DNA of 64,000 bases, from contig NCKB01000005.1 in assembly GCA_002279065.1 (NCBI GenBank), positions 124,001 through 188,000 on the forward strand, written 5' to 3'. The notes under the pieces were generated by a model, which was given only the letters and a program-made list of their open reading frames with translations, had not been told where the DNA came from and ran no database searches. Positions 2,155-35,061 of this stretch are shown here, piece after piece (the first letter of the stretch is position 1; every line of letters begins with the position of its first letter). Made by a program: the position numbers and the translations under genes. Source of the DNA: Lysobacterales bacterium 15-68-25. GTDB taxonomy: Bacteria > Pseudomonadota > Gammaproteobacteria > Xanthomonadales > Rhodanobacteraceae.

Positions 2155-2158
<4 letters not shown>

Positions 2159-14630: not shown

Positions 14631-14771
14631 TCGGCCGGCGGGCGCTCGCGTCCGGTGACGATCGGCACTGGGGTCCGGCTTGCACGACCGCGATGATCCT
14701 CGTGACCCCGGTCACCCGCAGGTGGATCGGGGCGTGGCCGGACATTTCCTGCCGTAGGCCTTGGAGGGGAC

Positions 14772-15323: not shown

Positions 15324-15371
15324 GATTGCCAGTCTCGCTGGCGCCTGGACTGGGCGTCGGGTGGCGGCGCC

Positions 15372-18489: not shown

Positions 18490-19290
18490 ATGGGGAAGAG
18501 GGAGGCACCGCGGTGGCGGGCCGTCGCCGCATTCGCGGTGCTGTTCGTGCTGTACCAGTCGGCCGAGGGGATCGGCCAGCGGCTGCTGCACAGTTTTCCG
18601 TTGCAGGCCGCACTGATGGTGGCCTGCGTGCTGGTGGCCTGGCCGCTGTCGCGCTGGCTGGGCTGGCGCGGCTACGGCGCCTACGCGCTGGACCGGCGTT
18701 CGTCGTCGCTGGCGTGGCTGGGATTCGGGCTGGTGGTGTCGCTGATCGCCAACGCGCTGGCGATCCTGGCCGGCGAGCGGCTCGGCATCTACGCGCCGAC
18801 CGGGCCCGCGCTGTCCGCGGCCGGCTTCCACGCGCTGGCCGCGGCGCTGCCGATGCTGGCGTTGTCGACTTTCGTGCCGTCCATCGCCGAAGACATCCTG
18901 GCGCGCGGCTTCTGGTACCGCGCGTCCGGCATCGTCTGGCGCCGGGGACTCGTCTTCGTCGCGTTCTCGGCCGGCTACTTCGTGCTCAACCATCTGTACC
19001 GGCTGGGCAGCGGGCCGAACGAGTGGCTGATGATCTTCTGCATGGGCGTCGCCTACGCTACGGCGCTGTGTCGTGCCGGCACGCTGTGGGCGGCGGTGGG
19101 CCTGCACTGGGGCTGGAACCTGGCCAACGGCGTGCTCGATCCGTTGCTGCCCGCCGACACGGTGGACGTGGCCGGAAGCCGCTGGCTCATCGCCGGCGTG
19201 CACCTGCTGATCGCGCTGCTGGTGGTCGCGGTGCCTCCACCGTCACGGGTGGTAGATGAAGGCCAGCGACTGCGACCACTGCGTGGTTGA
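18490..19290 (+). CDS. CPBP-family intramembrane protease-like protein
   Basis: Integral membrane protein of 266 residues with about seven or eight hydrophobic segments. The CPBP (Abi/CAAX protease-like) motifs are present in variant form: motif 1 is AEDILARGFWYR (E134, D135, R139, the EDxxxR form of EExxxR), motif 2 is FVLNHLY (H168), and motif 3 is GLHWGWN (H206, N210). These are the glutamic-type active-site residues of Rce1-like proteases; the substrate is unknown. Start has a GGGGAG ribosome binding site. The 3' end overlaps the convergent MipA-like gene by 48 bases. Confidence 0.85.
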   Translation: MGKREAPRWRAVAAFAVLFVLYQSAEGIGQRLLHSFPLQAALMVACVLVAWPLSRWLGWRGYGAYALDRRSSSLAWLGFGLVVSLIANALAILAGERLGIYAPTGPALSAAGFHALAAALPMLALSTFVPSIAEDILARGFWYRASGIVWRRGLVFVAFSAGYFVLNHLYRLGSGPNEWLMIFCMGVAYATALCRAGTLWAAVGLHWGWNLANGVLDPLLPADTVDVAGSRWLIAGVHLLIALLVVAVPPPSRVVDEGQRLRPLRG

Positions 19291-20013
19291 TCCGAAGCGG
19301 CTCACCAGCGGGCTGTTGCCCGCACCGCCCAGCAGGCGCCCGTAGACCACCGCCAGCGCCACGCCGGTGTGCCGGCTGGTCGGCAGGTACAGGTCGTATT
19401 CCAGCGAGGCCATCTCGCTGCCGGCTCCCGGATGCCAGGGGGTGACCCCGAGTGCGCTGGCGGAGGCCGGGCCGAGACCGAAGAAGCGGTTCATCGCCGC
19501 GCCGTTCATCAGCGACCAACGCACGCTCGCCGCTTCCTCCAGCCGGCCGATCGGCGGCAGGGTGGTGTCGGCGTACAGGTTGAGGTAGGCCCCGGCGCCC
19601 GCGGTGTCATGGCTGAGGTTGGCGCCCACGTCCACGGACTTGTTCAGCTGCCACTCCAGATAGCCGCCGGCATTCAGGCGGGGAGCCAGGCTGGGTACCT
19701 TGCCGCCGAGCGAGCCCAGGTCGGTGCGCTCGCGGCCCCACTGGTAGCTGCCGTAGAACCCGCCGCGCAGCGCCGGGCCGTGCAGCAGCTCCACCTCCAG
19801 CCCGTCCAGCGTGGACAGGCTGCCGATGCCCGGCAGCTCGACGTCGATGTAGGGTATCGGGTCCTCGCGCTGGTGCTTCGAGCCTGGCCAGGCCGGCATG
19901 CGCTGCATGCCCAGGCCCACCGCCACCACAGTGCTGTCGCTGGCCCGGCCGGCGAGCGGAAGCATCGTCAGAAGCAGGGCGAGGGGGAGGAGAAGGCGGG
20001 CGCTCGATGGCAT
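19243..20013 (-). CDS. MipA/OmpV-family outer-membrane protein
   Basis: A 256-residue protein with a signal peptide (SARLLLPLALLLTMLPLAGRAS) and a beta-barrel-like mature part ending in an aromatic-rich strand (WSQSLAFIYHP). Features of the MipA/OmpV family include the start VGLGMQRMPAWPGSKHQREDPIPYIDV, the alternating strands and SLEYDLYLPTSRHTGVALAVVYGRLLG near the end. MipA homologues are outer-membrane scaffolds implicated in murein synthesis or lipid A-related functions; a specific role cannot be inferred. The upstream start at 20094 is unlikely because 20013 gives the signal peptide at the N-terminus. Confidence 0.8.
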   Translation of the reverse strand: MPSSARLLLPLALLLTMLPLAGRASDSTVVAVGLGMQRMPAWPGSKHQREDPIPYIDVELPGIGSLSTLDGLEVELLHGPALRGGFYGSYQWGRERTDLGSLGGKVPSLAPRLNAGGYLEWQLNKSVDVGANLSHDTAGAGAYLNLYADTTLPPIGRLEEAASVRWSLMNGAAMNRFFGLGPASASALGVTPWHPGAGSEMASLEYDLYLPTSRHTGVALAVVYGRLLGGAGNSPLVSRFGSTTQWSQSLAFIYHP

Positions 20014-20138
20014 GGGCGTCGTGGTGCGTCGGCAAGGGGCGGGTCTCCGGCGAACGCGCGAAGCCCGTTTGCGATGACATCCGGGCCATCGCAAGAAAGG
20101 GAAAGGACGGGGAAAGACTGCCTGCCTAGCCTTTCACC

Positions 20139-20864
20139 ATGCCTACGAATGCGAATACCCCTGTGCCTGTCTCCGGTTGGACCATCCTGTGCGATTTCGA
20201 CGGCACCATTTCCGTCGAAGACGTCATCGACTCGCTGCTCGACCGCTACGGCCGTCCCGGCTGGGAGGCGCTGGAGCAGGACTGGCGCGCCGGCCGCATC
20301 GGCTCGCGTGAGTGCATGAGCGGGCAGGTCGCCCTGCTCGACATGAGCCGCGAACAGCTCGATGCCCATCTCGCCACGCTGTGGATCGACCATGCATTCC
20401 CCGGTTTCGTGGCCAAGGCGCGCGAACTCGGCGTGCCGATCCGCGTGGTCAGCGACGGCCTGGACTATGCGATCCACCGCATTCTCGGCCGCTACGGCCT
20501 GGACAACCTGCCGCTGGCCGCCAACCACCTCGCGCCGGGCACGCCGCCGCAGCGCTGGCAGCTCACCTCGCCGTTCCAGGCCGAGGGCTGCCGCAGCGGC
20601 ACCTGCAAGTGCGCCTGCGTCGATCAGGCACGCGCTTCCGGCGCCACCCGCACCCTGCTGATCGGCGATGGCGCCTCGGACTTCTGCGCCGCCGACCGCG
20701 TCGACTTCGTGTTCGCCAAGCACCGCCTGATCGAGCATTGCCGCGCCGCCGGCATTCCCTACGTGCCGATCACCGGCTTCGAGGACGCGCTCGACTTCCT
20801 GCCCCGCCTGCTCGACGGCAGCCTGCTCGCCGAGGCGACGCCGGCCGTCGCGGCCATCCCCTGA
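20139..20864 (+). CDS. HAD-family phosphatase (MtnX/SerB-like)
   Basis: Cytosolic HAD-superfamily phosphatase, 241 residues. Motif I is CDFDGTI (D19 nucleophile, D21), motif II is in VVSDGLDY (Ser/Asp), and motif IV is IGDGASDFCAADRVD. The C1 cap and the cysteine cluster GTCKCACV (about residues 152-159) are like MtnX-type 2-hydroxy-3-keto-5-methylthiopentenyl-phosphate phosphatases, which carry such cysteines. In context it may dephosphorylate an intermediate of the pathway encoded downstream. First gene of a six-gene operon; the aminotransferase follows after 23 bases. Confidence 0.88.
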   Translation: MPTNANTPVPVSGWTILCDFDGTISVEDVIDSLLDRYGRPGWEALEQDWRAGRIGSRECMSGQVALLDMSREQLDAHLATLWIDHAFPGFVAKARELGVPIRVVSDGLDYAIHRILGRYGLDNLPLAANHLAPGTPPQRWQLTSPFQAEGCRSGTCKCACVDQARASGATRTLLIGDGASDFCAADRVDFVFAKHRLIEHCRAAGIPYVPITGFEDALDFLPRLLDGSLLAEATPAVAAIP

Positions 20865-20887
20865 TCCCCATCTTTTCCGGATATTTC

Positions 20888-22294
20888 ATGAACGCTTTCG
20901 ACAAGAACGCCAGCCTGGTGATCGACGACGCGCAGCTGCTCGCCGACGAGGCGAAGTACAGCTCCTTCGGCGACACCGTGCATTACGTGGATCCGCCGAA
21001 GATCTTCCGCACCTGCAACGGCAGCTACATGTACGACACCGCAGGCACGCCGTTCCTGGACCTGCAGATGTGGTACTCGGCGGTCAACTTCGGCTACGCC
21101 AACCAGCGCCTCAACAACGTGCTGAAGGCGCAGATCGACCTGCTGCCGCAGGTGGCCAGCCAGTACCTGCACCAGACCCGCATCGAGCTGGCCAAGACCA
21201 TCGCGCTGGACGCCAAGGGCAAGTTCGGCCTCGACGGTCGCGTCCACTTCAACGTGGGTGGCGCGCAGGCGATCGAGGATTCGCTCAAGCTGGTGCGCAA
21301 CTTCAAGAACGGCAAGAGCCTGATGTTCGCCTTCGAGGGTGGCTACCACGGCCGCACCCTGGGCGCCTCGTCGATCACCTCCAGCTACCGCTACCGCCGC
21401 CGCTTCGGCCACTTCGGCGAGCGCGCGATGTTCCTGCCGTTCCCGTACCCGTTCCGTCGCCCGAAGGGCATGACGGCCGAGGAGTACTCGGAGAACTGCG
21501 TGAACCAGTTCGCCCGCCTGTTCGAGACCGAATACAACGGCGTGTGGGACCCGAAGACCGGCCAGTGCGAGTACGCCGCGTTCTACGTCGAGCCGATCCA
21601 GGGCACCGGCGGCTACGTCGTCCCTCCGATGGGCTTCTTCCAGGGCCTGAAGAAGGTGCTCGACCAGTACGGCATCCTGATGGTGGTCGACGAGATCCAG
21701 ATGGGCTTCTGGCGCACCGGCAAGCTGTGGTCGATCGAGCACTTCGGCGTGACGCCGGACGTGATCGTGTTCGGCAAGGCGCTGACCAACGGCCTGAACC
21801 CGCTGTCCGGCCTGTGGGCGCGCGAGGAGATGATCAACCCGACCATCTTCCCGCCGGGTTCCACCCATTCCACCTTCAACTCCAACCCGCTGGGCACCTC
21901 GCTCGGCCTGGAAGTGATGAAGATGGGCTACGAGCTCGACTACGAGACCTCGGTGCCGAAGAAGGGCGCGCACTTCCTGGAGGGCCTGAAGGACCTGCAG
22001 AAGAAGCACAAGGAGATCGGCGACGTCGACGGCCTGGGCCTGGCGCTGCGCGCCGAGATCTGCACCGACGACGGCTTCACCCCGAACAAGGCGCTGCTCG
22101 ACCGCATGGTCGACATCGGCCTGGCCGGCGACCTGGAGCACAACGGCAAGAAGATCGGACTCGTGCTCGACGTCGGCGGCTGGTACAAGAACGTCATCAC
22201 CTTCGCCCCCTCGCTGGAAATCACCCACGAGGAGATCGACCTGGCCATCGCGCTGCTGGACCAGTTGATCACCAAGGCGAAGCGTTCGATGTAA
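20888..22294 (+). CDS. Class III PLP-dependent aminotransferase
   Basis: PLP enzyme of fold type I, class III (omega-amino acid, ornithine, GABA or lysine-type), 468 residues. The PLP lysine is K297 (VFGKALTNGLNP), with D268 in MVVDEIQMGF, HGRT-type glycine loop FEGGYHGRTLGAS, and the class III EPIQGTGGYVVPP motif. The opening segment (NAFDKNASLVIDDAQLLADEAKYSSFG) is unlike common housekeeping ArgD or GabT. It would transaminate an amino-bearing substrate; with the ACP and ketosynthase just downstream, a terminal-amine or amino acid starter is conceivable. Substrate not known. Confidence 0.9.
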   Translation: MNAFDKNASLVIDDAQLLADEAKYSSFGDTVHYVDPPKIFRTCNGSYMYDTAGTPFLDLQMWYSAVNFGYANQRLNNVLKAQIDLLPQVASQYLHQTRIELAKTIALDAKGKFGLDGRVHFNVGGAQAIEDSLKLVRNFKNGKSLMFAFEGGYHGRTLGASSITSSYRYRRRFGHFGERAMFLPFPYPFRRPKGMTAEEYSENCVNQFARLFETEYNGVWDPKTGQCEYAAFYVEPIQGTGGYVVPPMGFFQGLKKVLDQYGILMVVDEIQMGFWRTGKLWSIEHFGVTPDVIVFGKALTNGLNPLSGLWAREEMINPTIFPPGSTHSTFNSNPLGTSLGLEVMKMGYELDYETSVPKKGAHFLEGLKDLQKKHKEIGDVDGLGLALRAEICTDDGFTPNKALLDRMVDIGLAGDLEHNGKKIGLVLDVGGWYKNVITFAPSLEITHEEIDLAIALLDQLITKAKRSM

Positions 22295-22318
22295 TTCCAC
22301 ACCAGGGACGCTTTCGAC

Positions 22319-22597
22319 ATGACCGAGCCGCAATCCATCGACGCCATCCGCGACCAGGTGTTCGCGATCATCGCCAAGCAGGCGAAGATCGACGTGGCCA
22401 CCATCCGCAACGAATCCACCCTGAAGGACCTGGGCGTGGCGTCGCTGGATGCGATCGAGGTGATCTTCGACATCGAGGAGCACTTCGACATCCACTTCCC
22501 CGACCAGGGCACCAACTTCGACACCGACACGGTGCAGCACCTGATCGACGCCGTGGTGGCCGCCCAGGCCGCCGGCAAGGAAGGCGGGACGCAGTGA
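22319..22597 (+). CDS. Dedicated acyl carrier protein
   Basis: Small acidic acyl carrier protein, 92 residues, expected to carry a 4'-phosphopantetheine arm on S42. The attachment motif is DLGVASLDAIEV: the usual D-S-L reads A-S-L, an uncommon variant of the conserved Asp before the Ser. Helix structure and the EEHFDIHFPDQ segment fit the type II ACP fold. Its stop overlaps the ketosynthase start (GTGA). As a second, pathway-specific ACP it is typical of polyketide or fatty-acyl-derived metabolite clusters, not of primary fatty acid synthesis. Confidence 0.88.
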   Translation: MTEPQSIDAIRDQVFAIIAKQAKIDVATIRNESTLKDLGVASLDAIEVIFDIEEHFDIHFPDQGTNFDTDTVQHLIDAVVAAQAAGKEGGTQ

Positions 22598-23823
22598 CCG
22601 ACGCCGACTCCCGCGCCATCGCCATCACCGGCATGGGCGCGATCAGCGCCTTCGGCGAGGGCGCCGAAGCCCTGTGGTCCGGGTTGCGCGAAGGGCGCAG
22701 CGGCATCCGCCCGCTGCGCCACGAGCGCGCCGCCGAGCTGCGCGTGCGCATCGCCGCGCAGGTGCCGGAGAGCTTCGATCCGGCCGCGCATTTCGGCGAG
22801 CGGGCGCTGCCGATGCTCGACCGCGCCTCGCAGTTCGCGCTGCTCGCGGCGAACGAGGCGGTGGCCCAGTCCGGTCTGGACTTCGCCGCAGGCGCCCTCG
22901 GCGACCGCACCGGCGTGGTGATCGGTACCGGCGTGGGCGGCGAGACCACCCAGGACGAGCAGAGTCGCCGGCTCTACGCGGAGAACGCCACGCGCCTGCA
23001 TCCGCTCACCATCGTGCGCCTGATGATCAACGCGCCGGCGAGCCAGATCAGCATGGCGCACGGCCTGCGCGGACCGTCGTTCGCGGTGGCCAGCGCGTGC
23101 GCGTCCACCAATCACGCCATCGCCCAGGCCGCGCTGATGATCCGCGCCGGCCTGATCGACGTCGCCGTGGCCGGCGGCACCGAGGCCTGCCTCAGCTACG
23201 GCGCCCTGCGCGCGTGGGAGGCGATGCGCGTGCTCGCCGACGACACCTGCCGGCCGTTCAGCGCCAACCGCCGCGGCCTGGTGCTGGGCGAGGGCGCGGG
23301 TGTGTTCGTGCTCGAGTCGATGGCCCATGCCAGGGCGCGCGGCGCGAACATCCTCGGCGTGCTGGCCGGCGTGGGCATGAGTGCCGATGCCGGCGACATC
23401 GTGGCTCCAGACCCGGCCGGCAGCGGCTCGGCGATGGTGCAGGCACTGGCCGACGCGGGCCTGGTACCCGAAGACATCGACTACATCAACGCCCACGGCA
23501 CCGGCACGCCGGCGAACGATCCGACCGAGACGCGGGCGATCCACGCGGTGTTCGGTGCGCATGCGCCGAAGCTGGCGGTGTCCTCGACCAAGTCGATGCA
23601 TGGCCACGCGCTGGGTGCTTCCGGCGCACTGGAACTGGTCGCCGTGCTGGGCGCGATGCGCGACGGCGTGGTACCGCCGACCGCCAACCTGGACGTGGCC
23701 GACCCAGCCTGCGACCTGGACTATGTGCCCAACCAGCCTCGCGAGCTGAAGGTGCGTGCTGCGCTCAGCAACTCGTTCGCCTTCGGCGGCCTGAACGCCG
23801 TACTGGCGGTGCGCGCTGCCTGA
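22594..23823 (+). CDS. Beta-ketoacyl-ACP synthase (KAS I/II-type)
   Basis: Thiolase-fold ketosynthase, 409 residues, starting at a GTG that overlaps the ACP stop. The catalytic residues are C169 (VASACASTNHA), H301 (NAHGTGTPAND) and H338 (STKSMHGHALGASG), so it has the full Cys-His-His set of a FabF-like condensing enzyme, with the last two in the canonical contexts. Residues around the Cys differ from housekeeping FabB/FabF. It likely extends an acyl group carried by the upstream ACP by a malonyl-derived two-carbon unit; whether it makes a fatty-acyl or polyketide chain is not visible. Confidence 0.92.
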   Translation: MTDADSRAIAITGMGAISAFGEGAEALWSGLREGRSGIRPLRHERAAELRVRIAAQVPESFDPAAHFGERALPMLDRASQFALLAANEAVAQSGLDFAAGALGDRTGVVIGTGVGGETTQDEQSRRLYAENATRLHPLTIVRLMINAPASQISMAHGLRGPSFAVASACASTNHAIAQAALMIRAGLIDVAVAGGTEACLSYGALRAWEAMRVLADDTCRPFSANRRGLVLGEGAGVFVLESMAHARARGANILGVLAGVGMSADAGDIVAPDPAGSGSAMVQALADAGLVPEDIDYINAHGTGTPANDPTETRAIHAVFGAHAPKLAVSSTKSMHGHALGASGALELVAVLGAMRDGVVPPTANLDVADPACDLDYVPNQPRELKVRAALSNSFAFGGLNAVLAVRAA

Positions 23824-23853
23824 CACCGGGTAGCGCGCGCCGTTCCGACACCC

Positions 23854-24921
23854 ATGAGCTATCTCGCGCAACTGGAGCCCGAGAGCCTGCTGCGGCAGTT
23901 CCTCGCCCACCCCCCGGACGGCTTCGTCGCCGGCACCACGCCCTCGGGCATGCCCACCTTCGTGGCTCCGTTCGACCTGCTGACCACGGCGGACGATGCG
24001 CTGCGCCAGCGGGTGATGAAGCTGCCGGGCTATGCCCGCTGGGGACGCTTGCTGCGCTGGCGTACCCGCTTCGTCGGCTGCACCGCCACCGAGTTCGCGC
24101 CCTTGCCGCGTGGTGCCGAGCCGGAGGCGTTGGCGGGCGAGCTGGTGTCCGGCTACGGACGAGACTGCGCGCTGATGGTGGTGAAGGACATCGCGACCGA
24201 ATCGCCGCTGCTGGACGTGTCCGACAACCTGCGCGCGGCAGCGCTCGCCCACGCGCTGGAAGCGGAGGGCTGCGTGCTGCTCGAGGGGATGGCGCTGGCC
24301 TGGGTGCCGATCGACTTCGACAGCGAGGAGGACTACCTCGCCCGCCTCTCGCGCAGCCGTCGCAAGGAGATGAAGCGCAAGCTGCGCTCCCGCGCCGACC
24401 TTCGCATCGAGACCTGGCACACCGGCGATCGTGCCTTTGCGGTCGATTCGGTGATGGAGCGCTTCATCGAGCTCTACGAGAACGTCTACGCGCAGAGCGA
24501 GATCCACTTCGACCATCTCTCGGCCGATTACCTGCGTGCGTTGCTGTGCGACGCGGGCAGCGGCGGGCTGGTGTTCACCTACTTCGCCGGCGACGAGCTG
24601 ATCGGCTGGAACCTCTGCTACGAGTACGCCGGCAAGCTGGTGGACAAGTACATCGGGCTGGCCTATCCGGCCGCGCGCGAACACAACCTGTATTTCGTCA
24701 GCTGGATGGAAAACCTCGAATACGCGCGGTCACGCGGCCTGAGCCATTACGTGGCCGGCTGGACCGATACCGCGGTCAAGCGCCAGCTCGGCGCGCGCTT
24801 CTGCATCACCCGCCATGCGGTCTACGTGCGCAACCCGTTGCTGCGCGCGCTGTTCCGCCGCATCTCCCATCATTTCGAAAGTGAGCCGGTGCAGCCGGCC
24901 CAGGCCATGGATCCGGCATGA
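23854..24921 (+). CDS. FemAB/GNAT-like acyltransferase (peptidoglycan-type)
   Basis: A 355-residue protein with a C-terminal GNAT-like (BioF2/FemAB-type) acyltransferase domain, starting near SRRKEMKRKLRS and continuing through GGLVFTYFAGDELIGWNLCYEYAGKLVDKYIGLAYPAAREHNL and GLSHYVAGWTDTAVKRQLGARF. Such proteins transfer aminoacyl or acyl groups to an amine, and some modify peptidoglycan or amino lipids. The N-terminal third is not recognised. It would be the acyl-transfer step that joins the ACP-bound chain or an amino acid to an amine acceptor. The 3' end overlaps the arginase-fold gene by four bases. Confidence 0.78.
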   Translation: MSYLAQLEPESLLRQFLAHPPDGFVAGTTPSGMPTFVAPFDLLTTADDALRQRVMKLPGYARWGRLLRWRTRFVGCTATEFAPLPRGAEPEALAGELVSGYGRDCALMVVKDIATESPLLDVSDNLRAAALAHALEAEGCVLLEGMALAWVPIDFDSEEDYLARLSRSRRKEMKRKLRSRADLRIETWHTGDRAFAVDSVMERFIELYENVYAQSEIHFDHLSADYLRALLCDAGSGGLVFTYFAGDELIGWNLCYEYAGKLVDKYIGLAYPAAREHNLYFVSWMENLEYARSRGLSHYVAGWTDTAVKRQLGARFCITRHAVYVRNPLLRALFRRISHHFESEPVQPAQAMDPA

Positions 24922-25796
24922 ACCGCCCCGTCGTCCTCGATATCGACCACTCCGTCGGGCCGCTGCCGCAGCGGCTGGTGATCCCGCTCGAGCATTGGCA
25001 GGAAGCGCTGCGCTTCGGTTGCTCGTTGCGCATCATGGAGCGCTTCCGCCGCGTGCTTGACGACACCTTGCCGGCCGCCTACGACACGGTGCTGCTGGGC
25101 AGCGGCGATTTCCACCACCTGACCTGGCCGCTGGTCGAGCGCGTACGTGCCGCCGCGCCGTTCCAGGTGGTGGTGCTGGACAATCATCCGGACAACATGC
25201 GCTATCCGTTCGGCGTCCACTGCGGTTCGTGGGTGCGCCGCGTGGCGATGCTGCCGACGGTGAGCCATGTGCACGTGGTCGGCATCGGCTCGTCCGACAT
25301 CGGCGCCGGCCATGCCTGGGAGAACTACCGCACGCCGCTGCGCGAGGGGCGCCTGAGCTACTGGAGCATCGGGGTGGACGTGGACTGGGCGTCGCGTGCC
25401 GGGCTGGCGCATGCCTTCCGCGCCTTCGACGACGCCGATGCCCTGGTGCAGGCCTTCGTCGGGGAGCAGCGCGCCGCGCCGCAGCCGACCTATCTGTCGA
25501 TCGACAAGGACGTGTTCGCCGCCAACGTGGCCCGCACCAACTGGGACCAGGGCCAGTTCCAGCTGTCCCACGCGATCGGCGTGATCGACAGCCTGCGCAG
25601 CGGCGGCCTGGTCGGCAGCGACATCACCGGCGAGATCTCCGCCTACCGCTACAAGAGCTGGTGGAAGCGGCGCCTGGCCGCGATCGACGACCAGCCGGAC
25701 GTGGACGCGCGCGAGCTTGCCGGCTGGCAGGCGCAGCAGCACGCGTTGAACGAGCAGTTGCTGCTGGCGATCCAGGCCGCGTCGACGGCGCCGTAG
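24918..25796 (+). CDS. Arginase-fold metallohydrolase (ureohydrolase-like)
   Basis: A 292-residue protein of the arginase/agmatinase/deacetylase fold, the last gene of the operon. All six binuclear manganese ligand positions of arginase can be placed: H66 or H67 (GSGDFHH), D88, H90 and D92 (DNHPD), and D196 and D198 (SIDKD). The flanking motifs differ from arginase (GGDHS is GSGDFHH; the third Asp-Pro of SxDxDxxDP is absent), so the substrate need not be arginine. Families with this fold hydrolyse guanidino, amidine or acetamide groups. Convergent with the DegT gene after 17 bases. Confidence 0.78.
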   Translation: MNRPVVLDIDHSVGPLPQRLVIPLEHWQEALRFGCSLRIMERFRRVLDDTLPAAYDTVLLGSGDFHHLTWPLVERVRAAAPFQVVVLDNHPDNMRYPFGVHCGSWVRRVAMLPTVSHVHVVGIGSSDIGAGHAWENYRTPLREGRLSYWSIGVDVDWASRAGLAHAFRAFDDADALVQAFVGEQRAAPQPTYLSIDKDVFAANVARTNWDQGQFQLSHAIGVIDSLRSGGLVGSDITGEISAYRYKSWWKRRLAAIDDQPDVDARELAGWQAQQHALNEQLLLAIQAASTAP

Positions 25797-25813: not shown

Positions 25814-27031
25814 TCAGTCGAGCATCAGCGCCAATACCGAAAGGATGTGCTCGAACGAGGCGTCGTCGAGCCAGCCGCTGTTGCTGATGGTGATCGCCCG
25901 TGCGGCGAAGTCGGTGGCGTGCGGCGTCGGCGTGTGCGGCACGCGGTCGGCGAGGTAGGCGTAGTCCGGCAGTGCGTGCACGAACAGCCGGCTGACGCCG
26001 AGGCCGGATGTCCACAGCGCGGCCAGCGCCGCGCGGGCCCGGTGCGCGTCGGGCATCAGCAGCATCAGGAACGGCCAGCTGCCGGTGGTGTGCGGCGTCT
26101 CCTCGAACACGGTCACGCCGGGCAGCGTGCGCAGCCGGGCGAGGCGCGCCAGCGCGCGCGTGCGGTTGGCGGCGAGGAAGGCCGGCAGCCGGGTCGCGGC
26201 GCGCGTGCCGACGCCGCGGCGCCAGCGCCCGACGCGATGGAACGGAATGTCGGGCGGGAAATCGTCGCCGACCGCGGCGACCGAGTCGCCCTCGCGCAGG
26301 GCGCGGCGCAGCGGCACGCCGTAGGCGAGGCGCAGTCCGATCGGGTGGTACAGCGCGGCCAGGCCGAACAGCTCCAGGCTGCGCCGCAGCTCCCAGCCGG
26401 GTTTTGCCGGCACGTCGCGCGCGGCCGTGGCGCGCAGGGCGCGGCGCAGTTCGTCGTCGCGCGTCACCAGCAGGCCGCCCTCGAAGATCGACAGCCCCTT
26501 GCCCGCGGCGAGGCTGAAGAAGCCGATGTCGCCGCGCAGCCCCACGCTGTGGCCGCCGTCGCGCGCGCCCAGCGCCTGTGCGGCGTCCTCGATCACGAAG
26601 GCGCCGTTTTCGCGGGCGATCGCCAGCGGCGCGTCGAGATCGGCCACCAGTCCGCCCAGGTGGGTCGGAATGATGGCCAGCGTGCGCTCGTCGCAAAGCT
26701 CGGTCAGTGCCCGCCGGTCCAGGTCCCAATGATCCGGACGCGTGTCGCACAGGCGCAGGGTCAGGCCCAGGCGGTGCACGGCGATCGCCACCAGCGGGCA
26801 GGTGTAGGCGGGAACCACCACCACGTCGCGGCCGGGGGCGCGTTCGCGCAGCGTGGCAAGGGCGATCAGCAGGGCGGCGGTACCCGAGCACTCCAGTTGC
26901 AGCGGTGGCGTTTCCAGTTGCGCTGCAAGACGCCCGGCCAGCGCATCGGCCCGCGGCAACAGATCGAGCGCCTGCAGCGGCAGGCCGGCGGTGGGCGGAA
27001 TCTCGCGCAGCCGGCGGAGCATGACGGTCAC
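25814..27031 (-). CDS. DegT/DnrJ/EryC1-family PLP aminotransferase
   Basis: PLP enzyme of the sugar-aminotransferase/dehydratase type, 405 residues. The PLP lysine is K178 (FFSLAAGKGLSIFEGG), D149 sits in VIEDAAQALGA, and the substrate-loop motif is VPAYTCPL. The family usually transaminates nucleotide-linked keto sugars, but some act on other substrates. The GTG start at 27031 overlaps the stop of the transporter gene upstream (GTGA); an ATG at 27022 is the alternative. It is the last gene of the minus-strand series that faces the six-gene operon. Confidence 0.88.
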   Translation of the reverse strand: MTVMLRRLREIPPTAGLPLQALDLLPRADALAGRLAAQLETPPLQLECSGTAALLIALATLRERAPGRDVVVVPAYTCPLVAIAVHRLGLTLRLCDTRPDHWDLDRRALTELCDERTLAIIPTHLGGLVADLDAPLAIARENGAFVIEDAAQALGARDGGHSVGLRGDIGFFSLAAGKGLSIFEGGLLVTRDDELRRALRATAARDVPAKPGWELRRSLELFGLAALYHPIGLRLAYGVPLRRALREGDSVAAVGDDFPPDIPFHRVGRWRRGVGTRAATRLPAFLAANRTRALARLARLRTLPGVTVFEETPHTTGSWPFLMLLMPDAHRARAALAALWTSGLGVSRLFVHALPDYAYLADRVPHTPTPHATDFAARAITISNSGWLDDASFEHILSVLALMLD

Positions 27032-27417
27032 GCCCCGTCGGGCGCCGCTTCCTCGCGTTCGGCCAGGGCCAGGCAGACGATGCCGGCGATGATCGCCGTC
27101 GCCCCGATCAGCTTGGTCGCCGTGAGCGGCTCGTGGAACAGCCAGACCGACAGCAGCATCACGCTGACCACCTCCAGGTGCGAGGCGGCGAAGGCCGGGC
27201 CGATCGGCGCGTGCTTGAGCAGGGTCATCCAGGTGAAGAACGCGCCCAGGTAGCCCAGTGCCGCGCCGTATACCCAGGGCTCGGCGGCCAGGCGCAGCAG
27301 CCAGGCGAGGCTCGCCTCCACCGGCAGCGCATGGTTGCCCGCCATCTTGAAACAGATGAAGTTGAACGTGTCGAACAGCATCAGCATGGCGAAGCCGATC
27401 AGGTAGAAGCGCTTCAT
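27028..27417 (-). CDS. EamA/SMR-like half-size transporter, second partner
   Basis: A 129-residue membrane protein with four hydrophobic segments, the size of a small-multidrug-resistance or EamA half domain. Motif PLTATKLIGATAIIAGIVCLALAE near the end and PIGPAFAASHLEVVSVMLLSVWLFHEP are typical of DMT-superfamily repeats (PxxAF/E14-type regions). Its ATG overlaps the previous half-transporter gene's stop (ATGA), suggesting the two halves form a heterodimer, as in paired SMR proteins. Substrate unknown; in context it may move the pathway's product or intermediate. Confidence 0.8.
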   Translation of the reverse strand: MKRFYLIGFAMLMLFDTFNFICFKMAGNHALPVEASLAWLLRLAAEPWVYGAALGYLGAFFTWMTLLKHAPIGPAFAASHLEVVSVMLLSVWLFHEPLTATKLIGATAIIAGIVCLALAEREEAAPDGA

Positions 27418-27773
27418 GCGCCGGCCCCCACCACCGCCACGCCGATGCTCACCAGCAGGATGCCGGCCACGCGCAGCCGCGTGAGCTTCTCGCCGAACAG
27501 CATGCGGCCGGCGATCATGATCACCACGATGTTGATCGAGCCCAGCAGCACGCCCTCGGACGCCTCCACCAGGGAGAGGAAGGCGATCCACACCAGGAAT
27601 TCGAACACGTAGCAGCCGATGCCGATCCACAGCCAGGGACGCGCGGCCATGTATTTCCAGCGGGCGGCGCCATCGCCGGCTGCCGGGTCACCGGCTGCCG
27701 CCTTGAAGGCGAGCTGGCCACCGGTGTCGAGCAGCGCATTGGACAGCCAGAGTACGACCGTTAGCAGCGGCAC
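27414..27773 (-). CDS. EamA/SMR-like half-size transporter, first partner
   Basis: A 119-residue membrane protein with four hydrophobic segments. It starts at a GTG (27773), eight bases after the end of the upstream hydrolase gene, and is followed with a four-base overlap by a second half-size transporter. Features are VVLWLSNALLDTGGQLAFKAAA at the start (DTGGQLAFKAA is like the EmrE-type N-terminal repeat), and GSINIVVIMIAGRMLFGEKLTRLRVAGILLVSIGVAVVG. A GTG start and close packing show it is translated with its neighbours. The two halves share topology but are not identical. Confidence 0.78.
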   Translation of the reverse strand: MPLLTVVLWLSNALLDTGGQLAFKAAAGDPAAGDGAARWKYMAARPWLWIGIGCYVFEFLVWIAFLSLVEASEGVLLGSINIVVIMIAGRMLFGEKLTRLRVAGILLVSIGVAVVGAGA

Positions 27774-27781
27774 GGAGGGCC

Positions 27782-28618
27782 TCAGGCCGCGGCGGGCACG
27801 GCCTCGCGGCCGGCCACGATGGCGTCGAAGAAGCGCGCGGAACGCTCGATCAGCGTGCGGCGCTCCTTGTCGATGGTGATCATGTGGTAGCTGTCGTCCA
27901 GCAGCAGCAGCTCGGTCGGCGCGTTCACCCCGCGCAGCACGGTCTCGGCGTTGCGCACGCTGGCCACGTCGTCCTCGCTGGCGTGGGCAACCAGGCAGGG
28001 CGAGGTCACCTTCGGCAGCAGGCCGCGCACATGGGTGGACAGCTGATACAGGTCGGCCAGCGAGTGCCACGGGTTGCCGAGCAGGCCGGCCACGGTGCTG
28101 TCGCCCGAACGCATGGCCGCCTCGACCTGGTTGCGCAGGCGCTCGTCGCGCAGGCCGTAGGGGTGCTGCTCCTCGAATACGCGGTGGCGACCCAGGCCGA
28201 GCTTCTTCACCAACGGCAGCAGGAACGACAGCTTCGCCGTCCACGGGATGCTCCAGCCGTCGTAGCGGAAGGTGGCGCCGTATACGCCGACACCGGCGAC
28301 CTGCCGTGGCCGCTCGGCGGCGAGCTTGAGCGAGAGCAGGGCGCCCATCGACAGGCCGCCCACGAACAGGTGATCGACCCGCTCCAGCAGCTTGTCGGCG
28401 GCGGCCTCGACGCTGGCATACCAGTCGCGCCAGCCGGTGGCGAGCAGATCGTCGATGTCGCCGCAGTGACCGGCCAGCTGCATGCCGTAGACGGTGAAGC
28501 CGGCATTGTTCAGGCCCTTGGCCAGCAGCCGCATTTCCATCGGCGTGCCGGTCAGGCCGTGGATCAGCAGCACGCCGCGGCGGTCGCCTTCGAGGAGGAA
28601 ATCGGTCGGTCGGATCAC
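27782..28618 (-). CDS. Alpha/beta hydrolase (carboxylesterase/lipase-like)
   Basis: Cytosolic alpha/beta hydrolase, 278 residues, from a GTG at 28618 with an AGGA ribosome binding site seven bases away. The oxyanion-hole motif is LLIHGLTGTPMEM, the nucleophile elbow GGLSMG (S90), then ASEDDVASV for the acid and DSYHMITIDKE for the His. This is the profile of the Est30/monoacylglycerol-lipase-like carboxylesterases with the lid FDG-type insert (AGHCGDIDDLL). It may release an acyl product from the carrier protein or hydrolyse a protecting ester; substrate unknown. It lies 44 bases downstream of the HlyD-like gene. Confidence 0.88.
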   Translation of the reverse strand: MIRPTDFLLEGDRRGVLLIHGLTGTPMEMRLLAKGLNNAGFTVYGMQLAGHCGDIDDLLATGWRDWYASVEAAADKLLERVDHLFVGGLSMGALLSLKLAAERPRQVAGVGVYGATFRYDGWSIPWTAKLSFLLPLVKKLGLGRHRVFEEQHPYGLRDERLRNQVEAAMRSGDSTVAGLLGNPWHSLADLYQLSTHVRGLLPKVTSPCLVAHASEDDVASVRNAETVLRGVNAPTELLLLDDSYHMITIDKERRTLIERSARFFDAIVAGREAVPAAA

Positions 28619-28662
28619 GGGGTATTCCTGCGCATGGGCTGACAGCGTGCCCGGTGCGCTTT

Positions 28663-29574
28663 TCAGTGGACTTTCGCGGGGTTGGACGGCTTGCCGAAGC
28701 GGACCAGCACCCGCTGGCCCACCCGCACATCGTCCGACGGCGGCTGGTCGAAGGCCAGGACGCAGCTCACGGTGCGCAGGTTGGCCCGCTGCTGCGGGTC
28801 GTCCTCCAGCGTGGAGGGGCCGACCACGCGGCCGATGCGCAGCACGTGGGCCGGCCAGCTGCGGTCCGCGCCGCTGCCGTCGGTGCTGACGGTGGCCGCC
28901 ATGCCGACCTTCACCGCGTCGACATAGGACTCGCTCAGCTCCGCCCGCACGATCGGCGGCGTAGCCGGCAACAGGGTGAACAAGGCGCCGGAGGCGGGCG
29001 AGACGCTGGCGCCGGTCTGTGCGGTGACCCGCACCACCTGTGCCGCGAGGGGGGCGCGCAGGGTGCGCAGGCCCAACTCGTAGCGGGCCTCGTCGCGCTT
29101 CTGGGTGGCCATCGCCACCGCCGCGTCGGCCGCGGCGCGTTCGGCCACCAGCGACTGCACGGCGGCGTCGGCCGCGTCGGCGCTCTGGCCGTCGCCGGCC
29201 CCTGCCGCGGCGGCCTCGGCCAGGCGTTTGGCCTGGACCTGGGCGTTCTTCAGCTTGCCGTCGAGCAGCTCGCGCTGGGCCTTGGCCTGGGCCAGCGCCG
29301 CGTCGGCCGCCTCCAGCTGCAGGCGGGCCGGCTCGGCGTCCAGGGTGGCCAGCACCTGGCCTTTGGCCACGCGGTCGCCCTCGTGCACGTCGACCGAGGC
29401 CAGGGTGCCGGGGCGCGCGACATCGAGCTTCAGCAGGCCGCCATCGACGTCGATGCGGCCGCGGGCCACCGCGGCGTAGGTGGGGGCGACGCTGGCGGGC
29501 GCCGACGGGGTCTCGTGCGAGCAGCCGGCGGCCAGCAGCAGGGGAACGAGCAGGGTGAGGCGCAGCGGTTTCAT
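28663..29574 (-). CDS. HlyD-family periplasmic adaptor of an ABC exporter
   Basis: Membrane-fusion protein, 303 residues, with a type II signal and lipobox LAAGC (Cys about residue 18), so it is a lipid-anchored periplasmic adaptor. Biotinyl-lipoyl domain parts are visible around VARPGTLASVDVHEGDRVAKGQVLATLD, then a coiled-coil hairpin of Ala-rich helices (about 75-165) and APLAAQVVRVTAQTGASVSPASGALFTLLP. It joins the FtsX-like permease and ATPase in the inner membrane to an outer-membrane NodT-type channel. Its start overlaps the upstream ATPase stop. Confidence 0.88.
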   Translation of the reverse strand: MKPLRLTLLVPLLLAAGCSHETPSAPASVAPTYAAVARGRIDVDGGLLKLDVARPGTLASVDVHEGDRVAKGQVLATLDAEPARLQLEAADAALAQAKAQRELLDGKLKNAQVQAKRLAEAAAAGAGDGQSADAADAAVQSLVAERAAADAAVAMATQKRDEARYELGLRTLRAPLAAQVVRVTAQTGASVSPASGALFTLLPATPPIVRAELSESYVDAVKVGMAATVSTDGSGADRSWPAHVLRIGRVVGPSTLEDDPQQRANLRTVSCVLAFDQPPSDDVRVGQRVLVRFGKPSNPAKVH

Positions 29575-30329
29575 GGCGCGGTTCCTTCGGGCGTCGCGGC
29601 CGGCGGCGCGGGGCGGCGGTCGCTGAGGATGCGGCCATCCTCCATCGACAGCACGCGGTCGGCGTGACGGATCAGGCGGGGATCATGGCTCACGCACAGC
29701 ACGGTGGTGCCGTGGGTGCGGGCGATCCGGTGGAGGATGTCGATGATGGTCTGGCCGTTGGCGGCGTCCAGCGCGCTGGTCGGTTCGTCGGCAAACAGCA
29801 GCTCAGGCTGCTTGGCCAGCGCGCGGGCGATCGCCACGCGTTGCTTCTCGCCGCCGGACAGCTCGCTGGGGCGCAGGTGCATGCGCGGGGTCATGCCGAC
29901 CTCGTCCAGCGACTGCGCGGCACGCTCGCGCGCCTGCCGGCTGGACAGGCCCAGGTAGTGCAGCGGCAGTTCCACCTGTTCCAGCCCGGTGAGCGCGGGG
30001 AACAGGTTGAAACCCTGGAAGACGAAGCCGGTGTGCAGCAGGCGGAAGCGCTCCAGCGCGCGGCTGTCCAGCCCGCCCAGCTCGCTGCCCAGCGCGATCA
30101 CGCGGCCGGCGTCGACCTTCTGCAGGCCGCTGAGAATCGCCAGCAGCGTGCTCTTGCCGCAGCCGGACGGTCCGGAGATCAGGGTCAGCTCGCCGGCCTC
30201 GATCGACAGCGTGAGGCCGTCCAGCACCTGGGTGCGCACCTTGCCGGAGACGAACGCCTTGGCGATGCCCTCGGCGCGCAGCGCCGGGCCGGAGGGATTG
30301 GCGGAAATCACGGGAGCGGGGCGGCTCAT
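29571..30329 (-). CDS. ABC transporter ATP-binding protein (LolD/MacB-type)
   Basis: ABC ATPase, 252 residues. Walker A is GPSGCGKST, the signature is LSGGEKQRVAIARALAKQPELLFADEPTSALDAANG, and the Q-loop region is FVFQGFNLFPALT, all typical of the LolD/DevA/MacB subfamily that drives FtsX-type permeases. It overlaps the permease stop by four bases and the adaptor start by four. It energises the tripartite exporter. Confidence 0.93.
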   Translation of the reverse strand: MSRPAPVISANPSGPALRAEGIAKAFVSGKVRTQVLDGLTLSIEAGELTLISGPSGCGKSTLLAILSGLQKVDAGRVIALGSELGGLDSRALERFRLLHTGFVFQGFNLFPALTGLEQVELPLHYLGLSSRQARERAAQSLDEVGMTPRMHLRPSELSGGEKQRVAIARALAKQPELLFADEPTSALDAANGQTIIDILHRIARTHGTTVLCVSHDPRLIRHADRVLSMEDGRILSDRRPAPPAATPEGTAP

Positions 30330-31459
30330 CGCAGCAGGCTCGCCGGATCGGCGCGGCGCAGGCTGCGCATCGCCACCAGGCCGGAGACGGCCGCCAGGGC
30401 CATCGCCAGCACCACGCACAGCAGGGTGATCGGGATGTTCAGCACCACCGGCACGTCCTGGCTGCGCGCAGCCACCAGCAGCAGGAAGCCCAGCACGGTG
30501 GCCCCGAGCAGGCCGATCGCGCCGACCCAGAACGCCTGCTCCAGCACCACCCAGCGCAGGTTGCCGACGCCCACGCCGAGCGCGTTGAGCGTGGCGTATT
30601 CGCGCACCGAGCCGGCCACCGCGGCCATCAGGGTCTGGCTGGTGATCACCGCACCGACCAGGAACACGATGCCGGCCAGGAACACCACGCCGGCACCCGC
30701 GCCGGTGTCGAGCATCCAGTACAGCACCGAGCGGCGCGCGAAGCTGCGCGCGGTCCAGACGTCGTAGGGGCCGAAGCCCTTGTCGCCGCGCAGGCGCGCG
30801 GCCACCGCATCGGCCTGCGCGGGATCGTGCAGGCGGGCGACCAGGTAGGTGGGGCGGCCCAGGTCGGTGGGGTCGTTGTCGAGCTGGCGCGCGGTGTCCA
30901 GCGAGGTCACCACGTTGACGCCACCGAGTGCGCGCAGGCCGCTGCTCTCGCCGACCACCCGCACGCGGTGGCCGTTGATCACCGCGGTGTCGCCGACCGT
31001 CACGCCCAGCTTGCCGACGTCGGCGCGGTCCACGATCACCGCATCGGGCTCGGCCAGTCGCGCGCGCAGCGCCGGGGGCAGGGCCTGCGAGAACATCAGC
31101 CCGTCGGCGCGGGTGTCGATGCCGGTGACGTAGACCGACTCGCCGCCGGTGTCGTGGGCGCCGCGCCAGTCGGCGTCGACCCAGTAGAACGGCTCGACCT
31201 GTGCCACTGCCGGGTCCATGCGCAGGCGCATTTCCACGTCCGGGTCGATCGGTCGGCCCAGGCTCACGCTCTGCGTGCCGGGGTAGCCGATCCACAGATC
31301 CGCGCTGGAGCCGGTGATGTACACGCTGGCGCTGGAAAAGATGCCCAGTACCAGCGCCGCCTGCAGCAGCTGCAGCAGGCCGGCGAAGCCGACCGCGAGG
31401 ATCGCCGGCAGGAAGCGCCGCCACTCGTAGACCAGCGTCTTGCGGGCCAGCGCGACCAT
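30326..31459 (-). CDS. FtsX/MacB-like ABC transporter permease
   Basis: Inner-membrane permease, 377 residues, with an N-terminal membrane helix (about 20-40), a large periplasmic domain (about 50-245) and three C-terminal helices. The start ATG overlaps the NodT-type gene's stop (TGATG at 31457-31461). The layout and the motif TLNALGVGVGNLRWVVLEQAFWVGAIGLLGA match DevC/MacB-type permeases. The periplasmic domain differs from LolC/E, so the cargo is probably not a lipoprotein. Together with the two genes downstream it forms an ABC exporter. Confidence 0.88.
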   Translation of the reverse strand: MVALARKTLVYEWRRFLPAILAVGFAGLLQLLQAALVLGIFSSASVYITGSSADLWIGYPGTQSVSLGRPIDPDVEMRLRMDPAVAQVEPFYWVDADWRGAHDTGGESVYVTGIDTRADGLMFSQALPPALRARLAEPDAVIVDRADVGKLGVTVGDTAVINGHRVRVVGESSGLRALGGVNVVTSLDTARQLDNDPTDLGRPTYLVARLHDPAQADAVAARLRGDKGFGPYDVWTARSFARRSVLYWMLDTGAGAGVVFLAGIVFLVGAVITSQTLMAAVAGSVREYATLNALGVGVGNLRWVVLEQAFWVGAIGLLGATVLGFLLLVAARSQDVPVVLNIPITLLCVVLAMALAAVSGLVAMRSLRRADPASLLR

Positions 31460-34394: not shown

Positions 34395-35061
34395 CGCCGG
34401 TTTCCTCGAGCAGGTAGCCGAGACCGCGCACCGTGCGTACGTTGGCCCCGCTCCCGTGAAGCTTGCGGCGCAGGCGGTGGATGGCGATGTCCAGGCCGTT
34501 GTCGGTCAGGTCCTGGTCCCAGTTGCACAGTGCCTCGACCAGTTGCGCGCGGTTGGTGATGCGGTCCGGCCGGCTGGCCAGTGCCTCGATCAGGCCGAAC
34601 TCGCGCGCGGTCAGTTCCAGCGGCGCATCGCCGACCCAGGCGCGGTGCCCGGGCAGGTCCAGACGCAGCCGGCCGATGCGCACCTCGGTGCTGCCCTTGC
34701 TGGCCGAGCGACGCAGCAGGGCCCGCACGCGGGCCTCGAACTCGGTCAGTGCGAACGGTTTCACCAGATAGTCGTCGGCGCCGAGGTCGAGCACGCGGAC
34801 GCGCTCGTTCAGCCCCTCGCGGGCGGTGATCACCAGCACCGGCACGCCGGAGCCGCGCTGGCGCAGGCGATGCAGCACCTCGCTGCCGTCCAGTCCGGGC
34901 AGCCCGAGATCGAGCACCAGCAGGTCGTGGGTGCCGTCGCGCAGGGCGACGTCCGCCTGCGCCCCGCTGGCCACGTGATCGACGGCGTGGCCGCCCTGGC
35001 GCAGCGCGTCGGTGATGGCGGCGGCGATGGCAGGGTCGTCTTCGGCGATCAGGATGCGCAT
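34387..35061 (-). CDS. OmpR-family response regulator
   Basis: Response regulator, 224 residues. The receiver domain has the acidic pair EDD (7-9), the phosphoacceptor D51 (LLVLDLGLPG), and K in DYLVKPF. The C-terminal winged helix has LTAREFGLIEALASRPDRI and GLDIAIHRLRRKLHGSGANVRTVRGLGYLL. It is coupled to the kinase and precedes the exporter operon, so it probably controls the exporter and possibly the whole minus-strand series. It is divergent from the M1 peptidase gene over 175 bases. Confidence 0.96.
   Translation of the reverse strand: MRILIAEDDPAIAAAITDALRQGGHAVDHVASGAQADVALRDGTHDLLVLDLGLPGLDGSEVLHRLRQRGSGVPVLVITAREGLNERVRVLDLGADDYLVKPFALTEFEARVRALLRRSASKGSTEVRIGRLRLDLPGHRAWVGDAPLELTAREFGLIEALASRPDRITNRAQLVEALCNWDQDLTDNGLDIAIHRLRRKLHGSGANVRTVRGLGYLLEETGDE

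Follow-up and report, generated by a model that had tools for sequence, protein, structure and literature searches.

Six tightly packed genes, here called HAD, AT, ACP, KS, GNAT and ARG, belong to a larger gene set that is widely shared and apparently unstudied. Its product is probably a fatty compound with an amine group that is carried to the cell surface, with a stress-type sensor system in control. Facing the six genes in the 64-kb window, the whole stretch of DNA that we analyzed, lies a conserved run (positions 25814-35061) comprising DegT, EamA, EamB, Est, HlyD, an ABC ATPase, a permease, TolC, a kinase and a regulator (Table 1). This run, its two-component system and a direct repeat shared by the two operons are stronger evidence of linkage than the packing of the six genes. 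None of the three appears in the first-pass annotation.

Table 1. Genes and putative regulatory sites of the locus, in window coordinates
Feature	Position	Strand	Remark
MipA/OmpV outer-membrane protein	19243..20013	-	divergent from HAD; recurrent neighbor, membership uncertain
Direct repeat GAAAGG-N5-GAAAGA, putative response-regulator box 5' of HAD	20101..20117	+	
HAD-IB phosphatase, MtnX-like (HAD)	20139..20864	+	TIGR01489 above cut-off
Class III PLP aminotransferase (AT)	20888..22294	+	most conserved member
Acyl carrier protein (ACP)	22319..22597	+	optional module
FabF-type ketosynthase (KS)	22594..23823	+	Cys-His-Lys-His kept; optional module
Tandem-GNAT/FemAB-like transferase (GNAT)	23854..24921	+	domain profiles, fold match
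Arginase-fold (ureohydrolase) enzyme (ARG)	24918..25796	+	complete metal site
DegT/DnrJ/EryC1 PLP enzyme (DegT)	25814..27022	-	profile; lysine kept
Half-size EamA transporter, ArnE/ArnF-like (EamA)	27028..27417	-	
Second half-size EamA transporter (EamB)	27414..27773	-	
Alpha/beta hydrolase, monoacylglycerol-lipase/Est30 group (Est)	27782..28618	-	
Direct repeat GAAAG-N6-GAAAAG, putative response-regulator box 5' of Est	28659..28675	-	overlaps HlyD gene end
HlyD-type periplasmic adaptor	28663..29574	-	
ABC exporter ATPase, DevA/LolD-like	29571..30329	-	
ABC exporter permease (MacB_PCD/FtsX), DevC-like	30326..31459	-	
TolC-family outer-membrane efflux protein	31459..32871	-	
Sensor kinase (2CSK_N, QseC/PmrB-like)	33000..34394	-	
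Response regulator, PmrA-like	34387..35061	-	

The six open reading frames, which lie in a Dyella-like member of Lysobacterales, are confirmed to be intact and packed as first described, with gaps of 23, 24, -4, 30 and -4 bp at HAD/AT, AT/ACP, ACP/KS, KS/GNAT and GNAT/ARG, so that two junctions overlap; KS starts with GTG. The families originally assigned to all six genes also stand, family calls being scores above Pfam or NCBIfam cut-offs. HAD matched PF12710 (42.6 versus a cut-off of 27) and the MtnX-like TIGR01489 (92.4 versus 81.55), AT matched Aminotran_3 (237.9 versus 30.5), ACP matched PP-binding (34.1 versus 20.8), KS matched ketoacyl-synt (168.3 versus 20.8), GNAT matched both Acetyltransf_6 (38.6 versus 22) and FemAB_like (34.3 versus 27), and ARG matched the Arginase domain (32.2 versus 22). 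HAD scored below the true MtnX equivalog models (87.0 versus 292 and 74.5 versus 303.2), while KS passed the beta-ketoacyl-ACP synthase II subfamily model PRK07314 (420.4 versus 387) and fell below the FabF equivalog model (439.8 versus 493.75). At the positions that we take to be catalytic, aligned orthologues keep the HAD DxD in 84/86 cases (the other two being gapped), the AT lysine in 83/83, the ACP serine in 40/40, KS Cys-His-Lys-His in 42/42 and each ARG metal-site residue in 69/69; the DegT lysine is likewise kept in its orthologue alignment. A role in anti-phage defense was rejected, with 0 PADLOC families matched at E values up to 1e-10 by each of the six proteins.

The order of the six genes exceeds chance. 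HAD adjoins AT in all 80 named loci, which were collected through AT and are uninformative on loci lacking it. Among these, 13 carry HAD-AT-ACP-KS-GNAT-ARG in the order and strand of the window; in 24 an inverted KS-ACP pair separates AT from GNAT; 20 have HAD-AT-GNAT-ARG with no KS-ACP between (one has KS-ACP after ARG); and in 23 the fetched stretch shows HAD-AT but not GNAT-ARG, some of these being cut by contig ends and two including the beginning of an inverted KS. With the full order in 13/80 loci and the facing run conserved, the earlier view that the six genes form the unit is not sustained. Scattering of the genes in close relatives had been named beforehand as grounds for abandoning the link; this does occur in part, with the two halves on different contigs or far apart in some relatives (G049 and G019).

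Co-occurrence was assessed in 147 relatives. AT was present in 62, all of which also carried Est; GNAT was accompanied by Est in 68/68 and by ARG in 65, AT lacked GNAT in 6 relatives and GNAT lacked AT in 12. The Fisher P values for these associations ignore relatedness, the strict cut-offs for Est (E ≤ 1e-60) and AT (1e-150) drop weaker homologues, and those for GNAT (1e-10) and ARG (1e-5) let in a few fragments and remote forms at 28-41% identity. An even sample of the phylum yielded 24 AT-positive genomes, and of the 21 contexts read, 19 had HAD and 18 had Est within the stretch, with at most four candidates (six in one other scan) scored per genome, so that rare distant members may have been missed. 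HAD-AT-Est recurs across Pseudomonadota, and Est adjoins HAD-AT outside the order Lysobacterales; proteins of L150-L153 are part of the distant-set profiles, which makes the scores for those four loci circular. Either the whole set or much of it was seen in Rhodanobacteraceae, Xanthomonas, Stenotrophomonas, Agrobacterium, Rhizobium, a few Bartonella plasmids and further Pseudomonadota families, and named plasmids from X. sacchari, Agrobacterium and Rhizobium carry it complete or nearly so. Wherever annotation was seen, the genes bear only generic names.

The direct repeat lies 5' of both HAD and Est. GAAAG-N6-GAAA has exactly two matches in the window against 0.05 expected, a figure that flatters because the pattern was picked after viewing these loci; with up to two mismatches, the 17-base repeat has 4 matches against 1.85 expected, and 11 of 100 shuffles reach 4. 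Among the named loci, GAAAG-N6-GAAA stands 5' of HAD in 73/78 and 5' of Est in 37/38, counts that include the loci at which it was spotted (by script for HAD, by eye for Est) and omit genes too near contig ends, as called by a simple in-house gene caller. In the same loci it precedes none of the other 15 genes in the same orientation, and altering the spacing by 1 or 2 bases gave zero sites 5' of HAD or Est. Both sites were found in all 12 whole genomes scanned, a partly separate check, and the repeat persists in genomes that have HAD and Est unlinked or on separate contigs (G049, G019 and G068).

It is quite improbable that HAD-AT with the ABC exporter forms one system and ACP-KS/GNAT-ARG/DegT/Eam/Est another, the two being independent and neighbors here by chance. 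They do occupy separate loci in G049 and G019, and AT and GNAT are each found without the other in some genomes, but the same repeat precedes HAD and Est even when these are unlinked, AT comes with Est in 62/62 relatives and Est adjoins HAD-AT outside the order. A chance neighborhood of unrelated housekeeping genes, for which nothing more than generic family names can be cited, is hardly credible, being contradicted by the conserved order, the co-occurrence and the shared repeat. The earlier claim that the six genes are functionally linked is supported.

The reversed pattern is no control at HAD, where it was found in 73/78 upstream regions, because GAAAG-N6-GAAAG contains it. The 12 genomes contain 135 occurrences of the pattern and 104 of the reversed control, the locus's own genome 7 and 6; this control itself matches the HAD sites, so that only the HAD and Est positions stand out. 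On the own-genome count we claim no genome-wide regulon beyond the two operons. Within the named loci, the genes for the exporter and the two-component system lack a repeat of their own, TolC sharing the HAD site only where it is divergent, and so does GNAT-ARG where KS-ACP is inverted. The repeat was not found 5' of distant sets outside Lysobacterales, nor in genomes G016, G018 and G027, and we therefore claim shared regulation for Lysobacterales only. Control by a riboswitch or other known RNA was rejected, no Rfam family reaching its gathering score within window positions 17000-37500.

KS/ACP and GNAT/ARG are optional modules. No KS orthologue was found in the three Stenotrophomonas-like genomes (G107, G122 and G128, so called from an arrangement common to named loci), four f171 genomes and three f118 genomes tested, the best matches in those ten genomes being 41-44% identical to KS and resembling general FabF, and KS/ACP was not seen in the annotated stretches of three plasmids. 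The dedicated ACP and KS, taken in the first-pass annotation to point to an acyl-derived product, are thus accessory, and the set departs from a classical fatty-acyl or polyketide biosynthetic cluster in that neither is indispensable to it. Close to that earlier view is a diffusible specialized metabolite (a signal, antibiotic or metallophore) that would be acylated, aminated and pumped out by the ABC-TolC exporter. We consider this possible, though unlikely. The ACP and a KS with a complete active site do occur together with an aminotransferase and a transferase, the tripartite exporter adjoins many loci, and the patchy distribution and plasmid carriage would suit such a compound. However, the exporter is missing from the fetched stretches of several sets (e.g., L093, L139 and L152) in which Est, and EamA/EamB in most GNAT-ARG sets, are present, KS-ACP is dispensable, and half-size EamA pairs of the ArnE/F type would fit lipid-linked flipping better than efflux.

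The best fold matches of GNAT include MprF, LPGS, APGS, FemX and Sbb17, at a TM-score of about 0.5, and PDB searches gave no sequence match to its MprF/FemX-type fold relatives. ARG combines a ureohydrolase domain above cut-off with the binuclear metal-site residues; its fold matches have TM-scores near 0.5, the protein alone gave no match among solved sequences at E values up to 0.01, and its profile gave weak matches. The solved relatives of AT are 4-aminobutyrate aminotransferase and alanine/serine racemase, followed at lower rank by putrescine, ornithine and acetylornithine aminotransferases. For none of the 25 families listed, out of 69, did AT come near the cut-off, and it scored 198.2 versus 410.05 for acetylornithine/succinylornithine transaminase (TIGR00707). 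The ornithine, acetylornithine and 4-aminobutyrate enzymes among these relatives, and the ureohydrolase residues kept in ARG, would accord with a primary arginine, ornithine or polyamine route resembling the arginine succinyltransferase (AST) pathway, in which GNAT acylates, ARG removes urea and AT transaminates. Such a route is improbable given the linked EamA pair, alpha/beta hydrolase, exporter and envelope-type two-component system, the patchy distribution (AT in 62/147 relatives), the sparse matches of ARG and the distance of AT from the cut-offs of those 25 families.

We favor, tentatively and at somewhat less than an even chance, a regulated locus of the envelope that would synthesize, flip and export an amine-bearing acyl product, for which we infer the following chemical steps, transport direction and product. 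The six genes would be the biosynthetic arm of a two-operon locus (the HAD-first operon and Est-EamB-EamA-DegT), with both operons switched jointly via GAAAGG-N5-GAAAGG repeats, most likely through predicted binding by the adjoining PmrA-like system. As their pairing suggests, AT and HAD, the core enzymes, may yield a small amine, most simply by transamination of a phosphorylated oxo compound followed by removal of the phosphate, a sequence for which SerC and SerB are a precedent, and a serinol- or serine-type head group made in this way is an attractive candidate. GNAT, with a fold as in FemX and the MprF synthase domains, would join an acyl or aminoacyl group to the amine, ARG may hydrolyze a bond of the guanidino, amidine or amide type, a dedicated acyl chain could come from KS and ACP in the loci that have them, and Est might cleave or recycle an ester. 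Flipping across the inner membrane would fall to the half-size EamA/EamB pair and outward transport to the HlyD-ABC-permease-TolC pump, the predicted product being an amine-bearing acyl lipid or lipopeptide-like compound. The conserved facing run, the repeat common to HAD and Est, the co-occurrence, the plasmid sets, the best curated matches (ArnE, DevA, DevC and PmrA) and the GNAT and ARG folds support this reading, which is weakened by ArnE/F, DevA/C and PmrA matches under curated cut-offs, TM-scores near 0.5, the confinement of the repeat to Lysobacterales and the occurrence of AT and GNAT each alone in relatives.

A broader proposal, which we regard as conceivable and doubtful, is a modular aminolipid pathway across Pseudomonadota, with a HAD-AT-hydrolase core making the amine head group, swappable modules (ketosynthase/ACP, tandem-GNAT/ureohydrolase and DegT) completing it, an ArnE/F-like pair and a Dev-like pump delivering it to the envelope, and a PmrA-like regulator with its own GAAAGG direct-repeat box in control. 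Such a pathway could be the source of some of the "unidentified aminolipids" reported in Lysobacterales species descriptions.

In the titles and opening lines of abstracts from one open-license library we found no description of the gene set, in keeping with the earlier statement that this exact set is in no described pathway; overall, the first-pass interpretation is partly supported. The locus lends itself to immediate testing, having a defined core, optional modules and a predicted regulator box. An envelope aminolipid would add a new one to the few surface-charge systems with which bacteria counter cationic peptides and other stresses on the envelope, whereas a secreted compound would represent an unrecognized biosynthetic class, of which cluster searches centered on KS probably miss the loci without KS.

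Several known systems resemble the locus in part. The AST pathway is analogous in placing a GNAT-type transferase and a class III aminotransferase around a guanidino compound; it differs in that ARG has a ureohydrolase fold and is not an AST dihydrolase, and we know of no AST counterpart of HAD, KS, ACP, the EamA pair or the exporter. Aminoacyl-phosphatidylglycerol synthesis by MprF/LpiA with the AcvB/AtvA hydrolase shares the tandem-GNAT transferase fold, as judged by fold matches, and its partner hydrolase and aminolipid flipping extend the analogy. Here, however, there are separate small transporter subunits in place of a fused membrane domain, AT, HAD, ARG, KS and ACP are extra, and profile and PDB searches showed no recognizable MprF sequence kinship for GNAT, which matched FemAB_like and Acetyltransf_6 only.

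The PmrAB/Arn system of lipid A modification shares a PmrA/PmrB-like two-component system, a DegT-type PLP enzyme, the envelope logic and two half-size EamA transporters, both with ArnE as best curated match. All scores were under cut-off: EamA gave 28.3 for ArnE (cut-off 92) and 27.6 for ArnF (99), EamB gave 25.5 for ArnE (92), the regulator gave 210.3 bits for the PmrA equivalog (330), though this was its best match, and DegT gave 71.9 bits for the ArnB equivalog PRK11658 (631). PmrA-type TTAA boxes, a candidate that we rejected, are scarce (1/90 HAD upstream regions), whereas the repeat here is GAAAGG-N5-GAAAGG, and to our knowledge Arn has no counterpart of the class III AT, HAD, ARG, KS/ACP or tandem GNAT. 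The likeness to the DevBCA-TolC exporter of heterocyst glycolipids lies in the pump: DevA is the best match of the ATPase (221.3 versus a cut-off of 295.8), DevC is the only NCBIfam match of the permease (92.2 versus 290.35), the adaptor also matches DevB, lower in its list (53.3 versus 129), and there is a TolC partner. The difference is that the exporter here adjoins an amine-biosynthesis operon.

The first-pass annotation had described six tightly packed ORFs encoding a HAD phosphatase (HAD), a class III aminotransferase (AT), an ACP, a ketosynthase (KS), a FemAB/GNAT-like acyltransferase (GNAT), and an arginase-fold hydrolase (ARG), and this run is present as described, with two junction overlaps of 4 bp each and every one of the six ORFs falling in its stated family in domain profile searches. 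AT is 98% identical in the nearest named contigs, from Dyella ginsengisoli and D. lutea. Orthologue alignments retain the expected catalytic residues.

Features of the window and of loci compared with it
Location	Position (strand)	Feature
Window	1397-4734	presumably a suf iron-sulfur cluster assembly operon, which it resembles from protein starts
Window	18648-18719	ARAGORN tRNA, undefined anticodon, inside CPBP-protease-like gene; probably a false positive
Window	19243-20013 (-)	MipA/OmpV gene (MipA), divergent to HAD
Window	20139-25796 (+)	six-gene run
Window	25814-35061 (-)	facing run
L152, Rhizobium BG4 set	14676-15551	annotated fatty acid desaturase inside the set
L124	10030-10938	desaturase-like ORF by appearance, next to ARG
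L161 (G688:C31)	~9084-10500	stand-alone KS-ACP; same genome also has an AT-ARG-Est set

HAD adjoins AT in all 80 loci fetched through AT (the named loci). The complete six-gene order of the window is found in 13 of these, KS-ACP is flipped and placed between AT and GNAT in 24, and 20 show HAD-AT-GNAT-ARG without an intervening KS-ACP, one of them (L092) placing KS-ACP after ARG. The other 23 have HAD-AT without GNAT-ARG within the fetched stretch; two of these begin an inverted KS and some end at contig ends. Opposite the six genes runs a convergent set, DegT-EamA-EamB-Est-(HlyD-ABC-permease-TolC)-kinase-regulator, Est being an alpha/beta hydrolase. Two loci, L093 of Stenotrophomonas and L121, lack KS-ACP and have the core genes of the two arms all pointing the same way. 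The halves can also be apart: G049 carries HAD-AT with exporter and two-component genes on one contig (L157) and KS-ACP/GNAT-ARG/DegT/Eam/Est on another (L156), and in G019 Est-EamB-EamA-ACP-KS lies 2.3 Mb from an HAD-AT locus that includes the exporter, GNAT and ARG not being found in that genome at the thresholds used. In the window, this second block lies between HAD-AT and the exporter.

Among 147 related genomes, Est is carried by 75, GNAT by 68, ARG by 66, and AT by 62, counts that ignore kinship. Neither AT nor GNAT occurs without Est, GNAT and ARG are both present in 65, and AT is without GNAT in 6 and GNAT without AT in 12.

A direct repeat, GAAAGG-N5-GAAAGG with an 11-bp period, is located 5' of HAD. 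Its core form, GAAAG-N6-GAAA, a pattern picked after inspecting the loci, has two matches in the 64 kb, one preceding HAD and one preceding Est, both gene-oriented, versus 0.05 expected (two were reached in 0/100 shuffles); a 17-base form allowing ≤2 mismatches was not significant in the window (4 versus 1.85 expected, 11/100 shuffles). In the named loci, the repeat lies between -160 and +90 of the called start for 73/78 HAD and 37/38 Est genes, and no gene-oriented repeat was found at AT (81), ACP (37), KS (37), GNAT (56), ARG (57), DegT (41), EamA (42), EamB (41), HlyD (35), ABC (20), permease (20), kinase (38), regulator (32), MipA (34), or TolC (19). Opposite-strand repeats occur at MipA (15/34), TolC (5/19), and HAD (1/78), and MipA and TolC can have intergenic space in common with HAD. 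Altering the spacing by 1 or 2 gave zero matches in every gene set of these loci; the repeat itself totals 122 matches in 1.31 Mb. Unlinked HAD/Est pairs (L156 with L157, L158 with L159) retain both sites, and a site stands directly 5' of both genes in 12/12 whole genomes. The signal is positional, because the pattern is not much commoner across these 12 genomes than its reversed control (135 versus 104), which itself also matches HAD sites. The repeat was not seen in genomes G016, G018, and G027, nor 5' of distant sets.

The two repeats tie the HAD-first operon to Est-EamB-EamA-DegT, the exporter and two-component genes being tied in by synteny only, and two independent neighbouring systems are a less likely reading. 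The neighbouring regulator, PmrA-like by a best match below cut-off, is a putative binder of the repeats. MipA, which also adjoins HAD in genomes of family f171, could be a member of the regulon, acting as a sensor or pore in the envelope.

An even sample of 349 Pseudomonadota genomes yielded AT in 24 (E <= 1e-110). In the 21 contexts read (G007, G122, and G659 were left out), AT is accompanied by HAD in 19, Est in 18, ARG and GNAT in 11 each, and KS in 6; as to HAD/Est misses, G690 and G644 are truncated by a contig boundary, and in G534 AT stands by itself. Two further genomes (G473 and G511) carry HAD-AT-ACP-KS, and G688 and G691 have a separate KS-ACP pair away from the locus, with a KS 54-55% identical to the window's; in G688, ACP was observed next to the distant KS. 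AT is also present in 34 plasmid records. On an X. sacchari plasmid, the set is present with its KS-ACP pair reversed. Plasmid pAt-B441 of A. tumefaciens combines a regulator-kinase pair with HAD-AT-arginase-EamA-hydrolase-GNAT-EamA and TolC-permease-ABC-adaptor, and a Rhizobium sp. BG4 plasmid carries regulator-kinase-HAD-AT-arginase-permease-desaturase-hydrolase-GNAT-EamA, ending with MipA. Bartonella sp. HY328 shows AT-GNAT-"hypothetical"; the third protein scores as ARG against a profile in whose construction it had been included. The ARG profile found no member outside Lysobacterales in 369 class genomes (E <= 1e-20), a scan that under-counts, because family f118 genomes, within the class and outside the order, have an ARG of 58-60% identity near AT; the ARG near AT in f171 and f225 is 28-29% identical. 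AT conservation (74-99% in relatives, 53-81% in other families) is well above its neighbours', ARG and GNAT being mostly at 46-75% outside the genus.

The AlphaFold model of ARG (pLDDT 90.7) best matches the folds of proclavaminate amidinohydrolase, guanidinopropionase, and agmatinase (TM ~0.5), and its motifs GDxHH, DNHPD, and SIDKD align with arginases in a profile search. Solved relatives of AT are headed by 4-aminobutyrate aminotransferase and alanine/serine racemase, with ornithine aminotransferases lower. The GNAT model (pLDDT 90.9) best matches the aminoacyl-tRNA-dependent transferases Sbb17, MprF/LPGS domains, and FemX (TM ~0.5), matches without sequence support in a search of solved structures. 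Est grouped with monoacylglycerol lipase and Est30. EamA/EamB are nearest ArnE/ArnF and the exporter is nearest DevA/DevC, all under cut-offs. The evidence is best read as a regulated locus that would produce an amine-bearing acyl product, flip it over the inner membrane, and export it. Gene content, co-occurrence, and the repeat are observed; we infer both the chemistry and the envelope destination. A secreted specialised metabolite is the chief alternative, and a catabolic arginine route is less likely. The desaturase annotated in the BG4 set and the desaturase-like ORF of L124 would fit an acyl product.

No description of the gene set was found in searches of one open-licence library, as judged by titles and the starts of abstracts. 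No defining test assigns the whole set to the Arn, MprF, or Dev systems or to a ketosynthase-centred cluster, whereas its individual parts all have known relatives.
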